DNA of 15,279 nucleotides from a bacterium. GTDB lineage: Bacteria > ARS69. Shown here in pieces: positions 390 through 14,552 of the stretch (positions are counted from its first letter, which is position 1; every line of letters begins with the position of its first letter). The notes under the pieces were generated by a model, which searched no databases, was not told the DNA's origin, and saw only the letters and a list, made by a program, of their open reading frames with translations. The translations under genes were made by a program, and so were the position numbers. The stretch is taken from contig JALGZO010000028.1 of the NCBI GenBank assembly GCA_025774865.1, positions 1 through 15,279 of the forward strand, read 5' to 3'.

Positions 390-3011
390 GTGACCTTTCT
401 GACGCGCTACGTCCGCTGGCTGCACACGCAGTGGCCGGCGGGCCACGTCGAGTCGCTGCCGGTCACCGACGAGGAGGGGCGGACGAACGTCCCCGGTCTG
501 TACGTCGTCGGCGACCTGCGCGGCATCCCCCTTCTCAAGTTCTCGGCGCACACCGGAGCGGGGGCCATCCGCGCCATCGCGAACGATCCGGCGATGCGGG
601 CGGAGCGGGACTCGTCGGCCGACGACCCCATGGACGTGGCGATCGTCGGGGCGGGAGTGGCCGGCATGTCGGCGGCCCTCGAGGCGCGAAAGCACGGCCT
701 CACCTACCGGCTCTTCGAGGCCACCGAGCCGTTCTCCACGATCGTGAACTTCCCGAAGGGGAAGACGATCTACACGTACCCGCGGGAAATGACGCCGGAC
801 GCCGATCTTCGGATCACGGCCGAGGTGAAGGAAGATCTGCTGGCGGAGCTCCGGCGCCAGACGATCGAGGCCGGGGTCGAGCCCGAAGCATCCCGAGTGG
901 AGAGCGTCCGGCGGCGCGGTGGGCTGTTCGCCGTGCAGCGGGCGGAGGGGGGCGAGTTGCTCGCCCGACGCGCGGTCATCGCGCTCGGGCGGAGCGGCAA
1001 CTTCCGGAAGCTCGGCGTCCCCGGGGAAAGCCTCGACAAGGTGTACAACCGGCTGCACGACCCGAAGGACTTCTGCGGTCAGAAGGCGCTCGTGGTCGGG
1101 GGCGGAGACAGCGCGCTGGAGACGGCGATCGCGCTCGCGCTGTGCGGCGGCGAGGTCACGCTCAGCTATCGAAAGCGGGAGCTCGCGCGGCCGAAGCCCG
1201 AGAACGTCGAAAAGGTCCAGCGACTGACCGCGGATCCCATGGCCGACGACGTGTCCATCGAAGATCCGTCGAGCGAGCGCGTCACCACGTCGGCCGCGGG
1301 GTTCCTCGGCGAGCACCGGAAGGCAGGGGCACTCCGGCTCCGTCTGGGCACCCAGGTGAAGGAGATCCGCGAGACGGAGGTCGAGCTGGCGAGCTCAGGC
1401 GGCGAGACGGAGACGCTCGAGAACGACGTCGTCTTCTCGATGATCGGTCGGGAGCCACCGCTCGACTTCTTTCGGCGATCAGGCGTTTCCGTGGCCGGGG
1501 ACCGGGGCGCGAAGTTCTTCGCGACGCTCGCGGCGTTCGTCGCGTTCCTCTGGTTCGTCTATCACTGGAAGGCGGGCGGAGGACTCACGACCTGGTGGGC
1601 CGAGCGGGACCTCTTCCCGTTCCAGTTCCTGCGACCGGACGACCCGGCGTCCTTCTTCGGGATGCTGCGCGTGTCGGCCGGAGTGCCGGCGTTCTGGTAT
1701 ACGCTCGTGTACTCGGCGCTCATCGTCGGGTTCGGAGTGCGCCGGATTCGCCGCCGGCGTACGCCGTATGTCCGGGCGCAGACCCTGACCCTCATGGCGA
1801 TCCAGGTCATCCCTCTCTTCGTGCTGCCGAACCTCTTGCTGCCCTGGATGGGGCACAACGGCCTCTTCGGGGACCGGCACGGGGTGGCGACCATCCCGGG
1901 CGAGCAGATCGCCGCGTGGCGTGAGGTGACGAGCGACCACCCCGGAGGCGACGCGACCGACCGACTGGCGGAAGTGCGAGCGAGAGGGCTCATGCCGCCG
2001 AGTGTGGTCGGTTGGGGGGAGCTCTCGCTCGAGAAATCGTGGGGAGATCGTTTGCTGCTTCGCGCCAACGCCCCCGGATCGCCCACCCGGGAAGCGACCC
2101 TCCGCCTTGCCGATGCCAGGATTCACGTTCGCGACGACACGGCGCCGGTATCCCGACTCGCCGAAGAGCTGTTTCCGGCCAGCGAATGGGATCCGCACGG
2201 TCGCGAGTACTGGCGCGCGTCCGGTTTCATCCTCGCGTGGCCGCTCTTCATCTGGAACGCGTTCACGGAGAGGCCGCTCGGGCTGTGGCTCGCGATCGGT
2301 TTCGTTCAGACCTTCGTGCTCATCCCGCTCATCATCCGGTTCTGGGGAAAGGGCGCGTACTGCGGCTGGATCTGCTCGTGCGGAGGTCTCGCCGAGACGC
2401 TCGGCGACGCGCATCGTCACAAGATGCCCCACGGTCCGATCTGGAACCGGGTCAACGTCGTCGGGCAAGTGATCCTCGCGATCGCGGTGATTCTCATGGG
2501 CCTGCGAATCGCCGGCTGGATGCTGTCGCACGACCACTGGGTGAACGCCGCCTTCATGGGGGTGCTGTACGGCAAGACCGCGGGATGGAGCAGCCTGCCG
2601 TTCCCGTTCGGTCAGCTGAACTACAAGTGGTTCGTGGATCTCTTTCTCGTGGGAATCGTCGGGACGGGTTTGTACTTCCACTACTCGGGGCGTGTGTGGT
2701 GCCGGTTCGCGTGCCCACTCGCGGCGCTGATGCACGTGTACGCGCGCTTCTCCAGGTTCCGCATCTTCGCGGACAAGAAGAAGTGCATTTCGTGCAACCT
2801 GTGCACCTCGGTCTGCCACCAGGGAATCGACATCATGAACTTCGCGAACAAGGGGATGCCGATGGAGGACCCCGAGTGCGTCCGCTGCTCCGCGTGCGTG
2901 CAGACGTGTCCGACGGGCGTGCTCACGTTCGGACGCATCGACCGTGAAGGCGGGATCGCGGCCGTCGACCGACTGCCGGCGAGCCCCGTTCAGATGCGTG
3001 AGGCATCGTGA
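390..3011 (+). CDS. Fusion of a thioredoxin-reductase-like FAD/NAD(P) module with a NapH-like membrane 4Fe-4S ferredoxin
   Basis: An 873-residue predicted inner-membrane electron-transfer protein. Residues 34-42 read VPGLYVVGD, the FAD-contacting strand that normally ends a thioredoxin-reductase fold. Residues 87-92 are GAGVAG (FAD dinucleotide fold) and 234-244 LVVGGGDSALE (NAD(P) fold). The flavin part ends near residue 354 without its usual C-terminal 'GD' segment. About seven hydrophobic spans follow (near 376-393, 435-451, 465-486, 612-626, 630-652, 688-712, 747-766), with a soluble stretch at 487-610. NapH/CcoG-type cysteines are C658, C662, C664, C771 and C775. Two ferredoxin CxxCxxCxxxC motifs lie at C799-C809 and C830-C840, so two 4Fe-4S clusters are expected. 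Inference: electrons pass between NAD(P)H, FAD, the Fe-S clusters and a membrane partner. The frame is open upstream to 282. GTG at 390 was chosen because it follows the sulfatase stop and precedes the conserved-looking segment; its ribosome site is weak. The stop overlaps the next start (TGATG). Confidence 0.85.
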   Translation: MTFLTRYVRWLHTQWPAGHVESLPVTDEEGRTNVPGLYVVGDLRGIPLLKFSAHTGAGAIRAIANDPAMRAERDSSADDPMDVAIVGAGVAGMSAALEARKHGLTYRLFEATEPFSTIVNFPKGKTIYTYPREMTPDADLRITAEVKEDLLAELRRQTIEAGVEPEASRVESVRRRGGLFAVQRAEGGELLARRAVIALGRSGNFRKLGVPGESLDKVYNRLHDPKDFCGQKALVVGGGDSALETAIALALCGGEVTLSYRKRELARPKPENVEKVQRLTADPMADDVSIEDPSSERVTTSAAGFLGEHRKAGALRLRLGTQVKEIRETEVELASSGGETETLENDVVFSMIGREPPLDFFRRSGVSVAGDRGAKFFATLAAFVAFLWFVYHWKAGGGLTTWWAERDLFPFQFLRPDDPASFFGMLRVSAGVPAFWYTLVYSALIVGFGVRRIRRRRTPYVRAQTLTLMAIQVIPLFVLPNLLLPWMGHNGLFGDRHGVATIPGEQIAAWREVTSDHPGGDATDRLAEVRARGLMPPSVVGWGELSLEKSWGDRLLLRANAPGSPTREATLRLADARIHVRDDTAPVSRLAEELFPASEWDPHGREYWRASGFILAWPLFIWNAFTERPLGLWLAIGFVQTFVLIPLIIRFWGKGAYCGWICSCGGLAETLGDAHRHKMPHGPIWNRVNVVGQVILAIAVILMGLRIAGWMLSHDHWVNAAFMGVLYGKTAGWSSLPFPFGQLNYKWFVDLFLVGIVGTGLYFHYSGRVWCRFACPLAALMHVYARFSRFRIFADKKKCISCNLCTSVCHQGIDIMNFANKGMPMEDPECVRCSACVQTCPTGVLTFGRIDREGGIAAVDRLPASPVQMREAS

Positions 3012-3454
3012 TGGCGAAGGCGAAGGTGCTCTTTCTCTGTACGGGGAACTCCTGCCGCAGTCAGATGGCCGAAGGATGGGCGAAGCATCTCCTCGGTGAT
3101 CGTGTCGACGCCTACTCAGCCGGTGTGGAGACGCACGGCCTCAATCCCCGCGCCGTGCAGGTGATGGCGGAGGCCGGTGTCGACATATCGGGCCAGCGTT
3201 CACAGGAGGTGGATGAGTTTCTGGACCTCGCGCCCGATCTCGTCGTGACCGTTTGTGACAACGCGGCGGAGCGGTGTCCCGTGCTGCCGGGCTCGCCCAG
3301 GACCGTGCACCACTCGTTCCGGGACCCGGCCGGCGCGCACGGCTCGGAGAACGAAGTGCTCCCCGTGTTTCGATCCGTGCGCGACGAGATCCGCGACTTC
3401 GTGAGGGGGCTTCCGGAGCTTCTCTCCGAGACTCCGCAGTCCGAGGGGGAGTGA
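3011..3454 (+). CDS. arsC: Arsenate reductase, thioredoxin-coupled, low-molecular-weight PTPase fold
   Basis: A 147-residue cytosolic protein of the low-molecular-weight protein tyrosine phosphatase family. In the arsenate reductase branch it reduces As(V) to As(III) using a relay of three cysteines regenerated by thioredoxin. The P-loop is CTGNSCR at residues 10-16 (CX5R). Cys82 and Cys89 lie in VCDNAAERC, and the acid Asp105 is in an RDP motif. The four cysteines 10, 15, 82 and 89 fall at the same positions as in the well-studied Staphylococcus aureus ArsC, which argues for arsenate reductase rather than plain phosphatase. ATG 3011 is preferred over GTG 3008: the GAGG at 3000-3003 is seven bases from the ATG, and the ATG overlaps the preceding stop. 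No arsenite exporter or ArsR regulator is visible nearby, so a phosphatase role cannot be fully excluded. Confidence 0.9.
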   Translation: MAKAKVLFLCTGNSCRSQMAEGWAKHLLGDRVDAYSAGVETHGLNPRAVQVMAEAGVDISGQRSQEVDEFLDLAPDLVVTVCDNAAERCPVLPGSPRTVHHSFRDPAGAHGSENEVLPVFRSVRDEIRDFVRGLPELLSETPQSEGE

Positions 3455-11103: not shown

Positions 11104-12411
11104 GTGCGAAAACAGCTTCGAAGCCGAGCGTGCGCCGGCGTGAGCGTCGTCCTCGTCGCCCTGGGAAGTGGCGTCGTGGACGCCGCGACGTGGCACATCA
11201 ATCCCGCAGGCACGGGTGACGCCTCCACACTGCAGGCCGCGATCGATCTGGCGTCGAGCGGAGACACGATCGTCCTCGCTCCCGGCATCTATCGGGATCG
11301 GGTGACGCGGACTCTCCACGGCAGCGACGCCGTGGCCGTGGCGTTCCTGAAGGGCGGTCTGACCATCGAGGGGCAGGAGGGACCGCTCGCTACGTTCATC
11401 GACGGCGAGGAGGACCATCACTGCCTGGTGGGGGAGGATCTCGACGAACAGACGAAGCTGAACGGACTCACGCTCATCCACGGAGATGCGCTCGATGAAT
11501 CGTCGCCGAGCGGCCGCCGGGGTGGGGGCCTCCTCCTGTACGAGTCATCGCCCGAGCTCCGGGAGATCCGGTTCGTCGGCTGCAACTCGCTCGACGGGGG
11601 CGGGGGGCTCCACGCGTCGGGGGCCTCGGGGAGTCAACCGCTCGGCGTGTACGAATGCGCGTTCATTTACTGCTGGTCCGGGGGACCCGGCGGGGGGGCG
11701 GAGCTGATCGACGTGGAGGATGCCGACCTGCAGCGCAACACGTTCGCCGGGAACTTTTCGGAGATGCGAGGTGGCGGTCTCGCCGTCGACGACGCATCCG
11801 TTCGAGTGGACAACAACGTCTGGTGGTTGAACTGCGCACACGAGGAGGGGGGGCCGCTGTGGTGCGAGCAGGCGGACGCCGCCGTGGAGTGCAACGTCTT
11901 CTGGCAGAACTTTCCCGAGATCGACGAGTCGCGCGGGTGTGGGGCCGACGTCGGCGTCGGGGCTAGGCCGAACACGATCGCGGATCCCATGTTCTGCGAC
12001 GTGAATTCGGAGGACTTCACGATTCACGAGCAGTCGCCGGCGGCCGAAGCGAACTCGGGCTCCTGCGGACAGATCGGCGCCTATCCATCGGCGTGTGGTG
12101 GGGGCCCCGGGCCCGTGAGCTCCGATCTGGCCCACGGCACGCTGCAAGTTCGCGTGTGTCCGAATCCGACGGCGGCGCCTTCGCGTCTCGAGGTGACCGG
12201 CGAGCTCGCGGCGGGCGCCCTCGTCGAGATCATCGACGTCGGTGGGCGGCGCATCCGCCGGCTCGGTCGCGCACGGGACGCTACTTCCCCGGTCGTGTGG
12301 GACGGTCGTGACGACGCCGGGAGGCGCGTCGTGGAGGGGATGTACTTCGCCCGGGCCTCCGCCGGAGACCGGTCGGCGGTGACCCGCGTGGTCGTCCGAC
12401 GTCGTCGATGA
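11104..12411 (+). CDS. Secreted right-handed parallel beta-helix protein with FlgD-like/sorting-type C-terminal domain
   Basis: 435 residues. Residues 1-27 form a signal peptide: basic MRKQLRSR, a hydrophobic core, and a VDA cleavage site before Ala-Thr-Trp. Residues 30-75 carry the '[25 protein letters not shown]' type opening of secreted parallel beta-helix (Pbl/DUF1565-like) proteins. A glycine- and asparagine-rich solenoid follows, and '[15 protein letters not shown]' with 'GQIGAYPS' closes the helix. The last 87 residues (349-435) form an Ig-like domain of FlgD or C-terminal-sorting type: CPNP, a valine-rich strand with IIDVGGRRI, then [17 protein letters not shown]. Cysteines are scattered and may pair outside the cell. 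Enzymatic activity (lyase or otherwise) cannot be inferred; it may be a surface or adhesive protein. GTG 11104 is set by AAGGAGG. Its stop overlaps queC (ATGA), an unexpected neighbour. Confidence 0.85.
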
Positions 12412-13097
12412 AACGCGCGGTCGTACTCTTCTCGGGGGGGCTCGATTCCACGACCGTGCTCGGTCATGTCGTCGCCGAGGGCTTCGAAGCGTACGCACTT
12501 TCCTTCGACTACGGTCAGCGACACCGTGACGAGCTCGACCGAGCGGTGGAGATCGCCCGTCCGCTAGCGAAGGAACACCGCATCGTCAAGGTCGACCTCG
12601 CCGGGTTCGGCGGCTCCGTCCTCACCGGCGAGGGAGAAGTCCCGAAGGACCGCGATTCCTTCCGCGAAATCCCGGTGACCTACGTGCCCGCGCGAAACAC
12701 GGTCTTCCTGTCGCTCGCTCTCGCGTGGGCGGAGACGCTCGGGGCGTTCGACGTGTTCGCGGGAATGAACGCTCTCGATTACTCCGGCTATCCGGATTGC
12801 CGCCCCGGTTACCTGGAAGCGTTCGAGCGGCTCGCCAATCTCGCGACGAAAGCCGGCGTCGAGGGAGAGGGTACCTACCGATTCCACGCGCCCTTGATGA
12901 AGCTGACCAAGGCGGGCATCGTACGCAGGGCCGTCGAGCTCGGGATCGACCTCTCCCGGACCCTGAGCTGCTACGACCCGGGCCCGGGCGGCGTGCCCTG
13001 CGGCTCATGCGATGCGTGTCGGCTCCGGGCCAAGGGCTTTGCGGAAGCGGGGCACCCGGACCCGGCGCTCGCCACCGCTCAGACGAGGGGCGGATGA
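12408..13097 (+). CDS. queC: 7-cyano-7-deazaguanine synthase
   Basis: 229 residues. Converts 7-carboxy-7-deazaguanine (CDG) to preQ0 using ATP and ammonia; cytosolic. The PP-loop SGGLDS is at residues 9-14, and the zinc-binding cysteines C188, C198, C201 and C204 lie in [18 protein letters not shown], the QueC C-terminal signature. SFDYGQRH (32-39) and VPARNT are other family blocks. ATG 12408 overlaps the stop of the beta-helix gene by four bases and has no strong ribosome site of its own, so translation may rely on coupling. The gene also overlaps queE by four bases. Full length, with no missing key residue. Confidence 0.96.
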
Positions 13098-13738
13098 GCA
13101 CGATCGTCGTCAACGAGATCTTCCATTCCGTGCAGGGCGAGTCGACCTACGCGGGTCTGCCCTGCGTCTTCGTGAGGCTGACGGCGTGCGATCTGCGGTG
13201 CTCGTGGTGCGACACCGAGTACGCGTTCTACGAAGGCACGAGGCGGGAAGTCGCGGATGTCGTGCGCGAGGTTCTCGAGAAAGGGTGTGATCTCGTGGAG
13301 GTGACGGGGGGTGAGCCTCTCCTGCAGCCAAGCGTGCACGATCTTGTCGCGGCGCTCCTCGATCAGGACAAGACGGTCTTGATCGAGACGGGCGGCCACC
13401 GGGACATTTCCGTTCTCGATCCTCGCGTGAAGCGCATCGTCGACGTGAAGACCCCTTCGTCGGGAGAGTCGCACCGCAATCGCACCGAGAACTTCGAGGA
13501 CCTTCGGGACGGGGACGAGCTCAAGTTCGTCGTGCAGGATCGGGCTGATTTCGAGTGGGCGTTGGACATGATCGTGCGACACGACCTCGAACGTCGGTGT
13601 CCTCTCCTCTTCTCGCCCGTGTGGGGCGAGCTCGAGCCCGCGGATCTAGCGAACTGGCTGCTCGCGGCGGGCGTTCCGGCGCGGCTCCAGCTCCAACTCC
13701 ACAAGATCCTCTGGCCCGAAGTGCTGCGGGGCGTCTAG
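13094..13738 (+). CDS. queE: 7-carboxy-7-deazaguanine synthase (radical SAM)
   Basis: 214 residues. A radical SAM enzyme that contracts the ring of 6-carboxy-5,6,7,8-tetrahydropterin (CPH4) to CDG. The cluster motif CX3CX2C is C32, C36 and C39 within [11 protein letters not shown], and TGGEP (71-75) is the SAM-binding GGE motif. The N-terminal FHSVQGES block is the QueE signature for substrate and Mg2+ binding. It is linked to queC by an ATGA overlap and to queD by TAGTG, where the last base of the stop is the first base of the queD GTG. Length is normal for the family. Confidence 0.95.
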
Positions 13739-14124
13739 TGAAGGTCGAGCTGACACGTACCTTCCGCTTCGAAGCGGCGCATCTTCTTCCGAACGTCCCG
13801 GAAGGGCACAAGTGCCGGAGGCTCCACGGGCACTCCTTCGCCGTGGACGTCACCGCCCGGGGGGAGGTGGACGAAGGGGTCGGCTGGTTCGTGGACTACG
13901 CGGACCTCGACGCCGCGTTCGCGCCGATCCGCCGGTCGCTCGATCACTATTACCTGAACGATATCGAGGGACTGGAGAATCCCACGTCCGAGGTGCTGGC
14001 GGCGTGGATCTGGGAGCGTCTCGAGTTGAGCGTGCCCGGTCTCTGGCGAATCACGGTCCACGAGACGTGCACGACGGCCTGCGCGTACTATGGGCCCGGT
14101 GATCTGCCCGGCAGGGAGGTCTGA
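13738..14124 (+). CDS. queD: 6-carboxy-5,6,7,8-tetrahydropterin synthase
   Basis: 128 residues, T-fold enzyme converting 7,8-dihydroneopterin triphosphate to CPH4, the second step of the queuosine pathway after GTP cyclohydrolase I. Zinc ligands are H15 (FEAAH), H30 and H32 (RLHGH). The catalytic Cys26 gives the CX3HGH pattern of QueD rather than a eukaryotic PTPS. Asp69-His70 and Glu109 (HET) complete the active site. GTG 13738 overlaps the queE stop by one base. A longer open frame reaching back to 13555 only shadows queE. The stop overlaps queF (TGATG). Confidence 0.94.
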
Positions 14125-14552
14125 TGGCCACGAAGCAGGGTTCTGACCGTGCCGCGAAGGCGGCGGCGGCCGCGCGCCGGGCGGAGCCCCGGCCCGATCC
14201 GGTATTGACATTCCCGAATCCGAACCCCGAGCGCGACTATGTCGTCGATATCTCGGCGCCGGAGTGGACCGCGCTTTGCCCGATCACCGGTCAGCCGGAC
14301 TTCGCGACGATCGAAGTGACCTACGTGCCCGACGAGCTCTGCCTCGAGCTCAAGTCGTTCAAGGAGTACATCTTCTCGTTTCGCGATCGGGGCGTCTTCC
14401 ACGAGGCGGTCACGAACGAGATCCTCGACCATCTCGTGGGGAGCTGTCGTCCGCGGAGGATGCGCGTGGTCGGTGACTTCAACGTGCGCGGCGGGGTCAA
14501 GACGGTGGTGACGGCGGAGTACCCGGAGCCCGGAGTGTTCGAGAACGCCTGA
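14124..14552 (+). CDS. queF: NADPH-dependent 7-cyano-7-deazaguanine reductase (preQ0 reductase)
   Basis: 142 residues, the short single-domain type I QueF. Reduces the nitrile of preQ0 to preQ1 with two NADPH, and closes the biosynthetic module. Cys52 in [10 protein letters not shown] is the nucleophile forming the thioimide, Asp59 the general acid. ELKSFKEY (75-82) is the QueF NADPH-binding signature, and the FHE at 92-94 binds substrate. The first 25 residues are an Ala/Arg-rich, low-complexity extension ([12 protein letters not shown]), unusual next to shorter homologues and probably disordered. The ATG overlaps the queD stop. Confidence 0.95.

Follow-up and report, generated by a model that had tools for sequence, protein, structure and literature searches.

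The window, a 15,279-nucleotide stretch of bacterial DNA (contig JALGZO010000028.1), contains an open frame at 390-3011 whose 873-residue product joins a flavoprotein to a membrane iron-sulfur module. Its 3' end is overlapped by a gene for an arsenate reductase. Farther along, the frames at 12408-14552 read by inspection as a queuosine precursor cluster (QueC, QueE, QueD, and QueF-like). The features of the two adjoining genes are as follows.

390-3011, forward strand: the whole gene, encoding a permuted flavoprotein plus a NapH-like membrane iron-sulfur module (873 residues, GTG start)
390-461, forward strand: residues 1-24, the family-specific N-terminal motif RYxxWLHTQWPAGxVExLP, from conservation across 53 aligned rows
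462-614, forward strand: residues 25-75, the displaced C-terminal FAD segment (TNVPGLYVVGD strand, then helices 49-64 and 67-75)
630-1502, forward strand: residues 81-371, the flavoprotein core (Pyr_redox_3, 8.4e-29; Pyr_redox_2, 8e-28; VIA-align Z 20.2 to YpdA 7a76)
1509-2750, forward strand: residues 374-787, the six-helix membrane module, from predicted helices, hydropathy peaks, and loop charges (transmembrane helices 374-394, 433-456, 465-489, 631-652, 689-711, and 745-764)
1881-2180, forward strand: residues 498-597, a variable, partly beta-stranded insert between transmembrane helices 3 and 4, from alignment gaps (strands 545-582)
2361-2381, forward strand: residues 658-664, CGWICSC, the first membrane-proximal cysteine motif, of the NapH/CcoG type (Fer4_5, NapH family)
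2700-2717, forward strand: residues 771-776, CRFACP, the second CxxxCP motif, with invariant cysteines
2772-2933, forward strand: residues 795-848, two [4Fe-4S] ferredoxin motifs (C799, C802, C805, C809; C830, C833, C836, C840), from Fer4_21, Fer4_7, and Fer4_10
3008-3454, forward strand: thioredoxin-type arsenate reductase ArsC, with the LMW phosphatase fold (TIGR02691, PF01451)

Two dinucleotide-binding folds score above cut-off in the product (Pyr_redox_3, 101.2 bits against 30; Pyr_redox_2, 98.1 against 26.1). Pfam places both models at residues 81-369, with Fer4_5 and a 4Fe-4S dicluster towards the carboxyl terminus, and NCBIfam adds weak NapH, YpdA, and TrxB matches. The core reads in the order FAD dinucleotide fold (GAGVAG, residues 87-92); inserted NAD(P) domain (GGGDSA, 237-242); and return to the FAD domain. 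The C-terminal FAD segment does not follow the NAD(P) domain but precedes the core: TNVPGLYVVGD occupies residues 32-42, and the Lys-Phe-Ser and Gly/Ala-rich helix residues 50-64, which is the order that the first-pass annotation had described. Residues 25-75 are matched by the C-terminal parts of the TrxB, lipoamide dehydrogenase, and AhpF-homologue models; in the lipoamide dehydrogenase model, positions 290-334 of 461 align to residues 25-68. The flavin part does run into the first membrane span, as had been proposed; it ends at about residues 366-371, and the first membrane helix begins at 374.

Translation does not start at Met81, because in approximately 55 homologues, drawn from many phyla, the chain starts at the residue equivalent to the GTG start, with the motif M....RYxxWLHTQWPAGxVEKLP. 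A mis-called start is thereby ruled out; the first-pass annotation had itself named a start at Met81, with the upstream part untranslated, as the finding that would count against its reading. Full-length relatives with the same domain order, from many phyla, retain the segment, and the 53-row alignment has many invariant residues in both the N-terminal motif (W10, L11, H12, W15, P16, A17, G18, E21, and P24) and the segment. An assembly artefact was also considered, and is ruled out by permuted paralogues elsewhere in the same genome together with homologues in chromosome-level records; those with full-length homologues include CP070677 and CP087563.

The permutation was examined by reversing it in silico: residues 18-76 were moved behind the core, with a shuffled segment as the control. 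De-permutation raised the Pyr_redox_2 score from 102.6 to 115.7 bits (shuffled, 90.4), and the resulting alignment is one continuous stretch covering profile positions 1-280. Scores rose likewise with TIGR01292 (80.5 to 91.7; shuffled, 67.7) and with the lipoamide dehydrogenase model (41.3 to 54.2; shuffled, 28.5). For the relatives, a model was built solely from six unpermuted sequences; the de-permuted order scored higher in 100 of 105 relatives (Wilcoxon p ~2e-18, the relatives not being independent), and the median gain over the core alone was 14.2 bits de-permuted, 6.2 in native order, and 1.4 shuffled. In L024, an unpermuted relative, the chain closes with YPVYDEETFETRISGLYLAGHITKQRFIKNALDHG..., which is this segment in its usual C-terminal position.

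Among 122 distinct open frames, the segment lies before the core in 109, after it in eight, and at both ends in none, with five unassigned. Thus, no second copy follows the core in any of the 117 classified frames, in agreement with the earlier reading that none comes after the NAD(P) fold in this protein; a duplication intermediate, with the segment at both ends, was likewise absent from those 117 rows. The circular permutation put forward in the first-pass annotation, here of a TrxB/YpdA-type flavoprotein domain, is established by computation at the level of sequence, along with its conservation and the domain order.

A scan of bacterial and archaeal genomes yielded 73 loci, most with a full-length protein (full-length homologues include L038-L110). 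Homologues occur in the Planctomycetota, Verrucomicrobiota, Latescibacterota, KSB1, Dadabacteria, Acidobacteriota, Myxococcota, Bdellovibrionota, Calditrichota, and other phyla, and a profile match beginning in the N-terminal segment was found in 33 of 386 sampled genomes. In trees built from core columns, without the segment columns, a single branch has every permuted row on one side (100/98; SH-aLRT 99 for the same split in another such tree), in trees whose unpermuted set is small (six rows) and whose root is not placed. The split is compatible with a single origin of the permuted domain.

The gene neighbourhoods are diverse. Here, the downstream ArsC gene scores just below the TIGR02691 cut-off (167.6 bits against 174.3), matches PF01451, and probably belongs to the same operon as the flavoprotein gene; the flavoprotein-ArsC order recurs in G003, another genus of the same family. 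Genes for ArsS, ArsM, or an arsenosugar-type glycosyltransferase lie near L038, L060, L068, L071, L091, L097, L098, L107, and L111. DUF547 genes neighbour about 17 homologue loci. In three candidate-phylum genomes, a ferritin-family gene follows the flavoprotein gene (L042:6483-7142, L045:6326-6868, and L049:5789-6286).

Could the protein be dedicated to arsenic metabolism, supplying electrons for arsenate or organoarsenical chemistry? The ArsC neighbour, here and in G003, would fit such a role, as would the ArsS, ArsM, and arsenosugar-type TIGR04283/TIGR04282 genes near some homologues (L038, L068, and L097, for example) and the DUF2064/glycosyltransferase cluster at the Pseudoalteromonas homologue. 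Most homologues, however, lack arsenic neighbours and stand instead beside genes for ferritin, glutamate dehydrogenase, UPRTase, or DUF547 proteins, and a dedicated arsenic function is unlikely. Because the neighbourhoods vary, a general electron donor is favoured over a role in any single pathway.

Structure prediction bears on where the displaced segment goes. AlphaFold predictions for the full-length chain and for residues 1-373 have mean pLDDT values of 84.9 and 88.0, and the segment is modelled as a strand (residues 37-41) and two helices (49-64 and 67-75), with block means of 76-96. Foldseek and VIA-align match residues 78-371 to residues 1 to ~270 of YpdA/TrxR. The best structural match is YpdA, 7a76 (Z 20.2, 5.5 Å, 261 residues aligned), in which residues 3-277 of the 324-residue chain 7a76_D are covered; about 50 C-terminal template residues have no sequential partner in these alignments. 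The predictions argue against a segment that folds away from the flavin site, an outcome that had been set against the proposal at the outset, and we infer that the segment would fold back in cis and close the FAD site as it does in the unpermuted order. No solved structure with the same order was found by sequence search or among the structural matches listed.

A cis arrangement is not the sole way to close the site, since TrxR-like enzymes are dimers, and in TrxR-like ferredoxin-NADP reductases each FAD is covered by the C-terminal helix of the other monomer (PMC10294844). The N-terminal segment could thus complete the site of a neighbouring subunit by domain swapping, an arrangement with which the monomer model is compatible. 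Against this, only a short linker connects the segment with strand 81-86, and both segment and core are modelled with high confidence in the monomer. Furthermore, what crosses between monomers in those enzymes is a C-terminal subdomain bearing the stacking residue, an element that Bdr/YpdA, the nearest solved relatives, do without (PMC10294844). Such a swap is accordingly judged quite unlikely. The preferred reading, considered probable, is a membrane-bound single-chain NAD(P)H oxidoreductase whose circularly permuted TrxR/YpdA-type flavin domain closes its FAD site in cis.

The membrane module was thought at first to contain seven spans, but hydropathy peaks and predicted helices both give six. 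Residues 614-630, not helical in the model, are probably the additional span counted earlier. Six helices and arginine-rich loop charges indicate an N-in, C-in topology; six spans place the ferredoxin clusters and the two cysteine motifs on the same, cytoplasmic side as the flavin domain. The cysteines C658/C662 and C771/C775, as well as all eight cluster cysteines, are invariant in 53 rows, and these together with the Fer4 family matches uphold the earlier assignment of a NapH-like module carrying two [4Fe-4S] motifs at its carboxyl end. The insert at residues 498-597 is predicted to lie on the outer side of the membrane. It is absent from most homologues (gaps at ~493-590) and continuous in L038, L039, L040, and L107; this stretch of about 100 residues between helices 3 and 4, common to few homologues, is possibly an extra extracytoplasmic domain.

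The domain content suggests a likely function, in which electrons would pass from NAD(P)H through FAD and [4Fe-4S] clusters to a membrane or periplasmic acceptor. The FAD-closing strand and helix, formerly C-terminal and now N-terminal, would lead through a short helix into the FAD fold's first strand. Hydride would be transferred from NAD(P)H to FAD, which would then feed the C-terminal [4Fe-4S] clusters one electron at a time, as happens in TrxR-like ferredoxin-NADP reductases. From the clusters, electrons would pass through the NapH/CcoG-type membrane module, whose two cysteine motifs would face the cytoplasm. They would end on a quinone, a metal, or a periplasmic acceptor, perhaps a different one in different organisms.

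Details of the core are in keeping with this scheme. The only cysteines in residues 81-371 are C229 and C252; having no CxxC, the core is unlikely to carry out TrxB-like disulfide chemistry, and a role like that of the TrxR-like ferredoxin reductases fits. Conserved basic residues (R261, R267, and K269) follow the second glycine motif, which suggests that NADPH, more likely than NADH, may be the substrate. As for the acceptor, CcoG has the same membrane-anchored 2[4Fe-4S] layout. Cupric reductase activity is reported for CcoG (PMC8267372), and NapGH is known as a quinol dehydrogenase (PMC5449189), which makes a quinone or a metal the foremost candidate. Gene neighbourhoods differ between lineages, which leaves room for other acceptors and for electron flow in the reverse direction.

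If reversed, the NapH-like module would oxidize quinol and send electrons to NADP+, aided by the membrane potential. The quinol dehydrogenase activity of NapGH (PMC5449189) offers a precedent, and a PntB-like gene lies upstream in L038, with its homologue in L071. Nonetheless, this direction is energetically uphill without a pump, and no pump subunit was recognized in the chain; we regard it as improbable. Electron flow from NAD(P)H towards the membrane remains the preferred reading.

In architecture A, that of the 390-3011 gene, the permuted domain precedes a NapH-like membrane module; architecture D comprises divergent paralogues with the A layout (L014, L048, L054, L125, L127, and L128). 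In architecture B, an N-terminal anchor and a 2[4Fe-4S] domain come first, and the permuted domain ends the protein, with 7-34 residues after the core. The genome that carries the 390-3011 gene encodes both A and B (the latter as C616), and its C229 has an N-terminal part that C9 may continue. In Emticicia, a B-type gene adjoins cytochrome c3 genes. Further variants place a cytochrome c3 domain N-terminal to Fer4 (L139, 82-2430), or follow the permuted part with a C-terminal membrane domain that has no Pfam name (L143, 1135-3399; L144, 370-3408).

Within the A-type family, WLHTQWPAG is almost invariant although modelled with low confidence (pLDDT for residues 11-20 is 44 in the isolated domain and 62 in the full chain), a combination that suggests the motif may contact the membrane module or a partner.

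The first-pass annotation had explained the permutation by its outcome here, a new carboxyl terminus able to reach the NapH module. The evidence speaks against that explanation: B-type proteins carry the same permuted domain after an N-terminal 2[4Fe-4S] domain and end shortly beyond the core; the permutation is not tied to NapH fusion, and probably was not selected just to reach it. In the complete rows examined, the partners are Fer4, NapH-like, cytochrome c3, and other membrane domains, and the common theme is an electron-transfer partner on either new end. That the segment might be a leftover of fusion to another flavoprotein, with no part in the fold, is scarcely credible: taken alone, it does match known families weakly (best E 3e-4), but G41, G45, and L48 are invariant in 43 rows, no classified relative has an additional C-terminal copy to take its place, and none of the architectures has lost the segment. 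The permuted domain would rather appear to be a general adaptor that links NAD(P)H to wiring of the iron-sulfur or haem type.

A broader proposal is that one ancient permutation of the TrxR/YpdA FAD domain founded a widespread, unrecognized electron-transfer superfamily that bacteria combine with ferredoxin, NapH-type, and cytochrome membrane wiring as a general link from NAD(P)H to the membrane; we lean slightly towards it. If the reading of these proteins is right, many phyla share a naturally permuted, conserved version of a classic fold, coupled to electron-transfer partners, and bacterial membranes have a new candidate entry point for NAD(P)H electrons. Database models label such proteins as ordinary Pyr_redox or "NAD(P)-binding domain-containing protein", overlooking the permutation, and no published description of the module was found in the part of the literature on permutation, flavoproteins, NapH/CcoG, and arsenosugars that was covered. 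The reading is testable because cultured carriers exist: Pseudoalteromonas sp. Bsw20308 (WP_007378779.1, full-length) and Emticicia oligotrophica.

YpdA/Bdr and the TrxR-like ferredoxin-NADP reductases share with this protein the two-Rossmann flavoprotein core and the lack of a TrxB-type CxxC. Relative to both, the segment order is permuted and a membrane module is fused (YpdA model TIGR04018, 118.2 bits against a cut-off of 339.9). TrxB is set apart by its CxxC, absent here (TIGR01292, 75.1 bits against 343.45). On the membrane side, the ferredoxins of the NapH/MauN, CcoG, and NosR types have the same paired membrane cysteine motifs and two C-terminal [4Fe-4S] motifs, whereas the protein described here has extra helices, an extracytoplasmic insert, and an N-terminal flavin domain (NapH/MauN model TIGR02163, E 1.6e-12, 47.5 bits against 213.05). 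The NapH-NapG fusion polyferredoxin of delta proteobacterium MLMS-1 likewise combines a NapH-type module and a further redox domain in one chain (PMC5449189). There, the fusion partner is a Tat-exported periplasmic ferredoxin; here, it is a predicted cytoplasmic NAD(P)H flavin domain.
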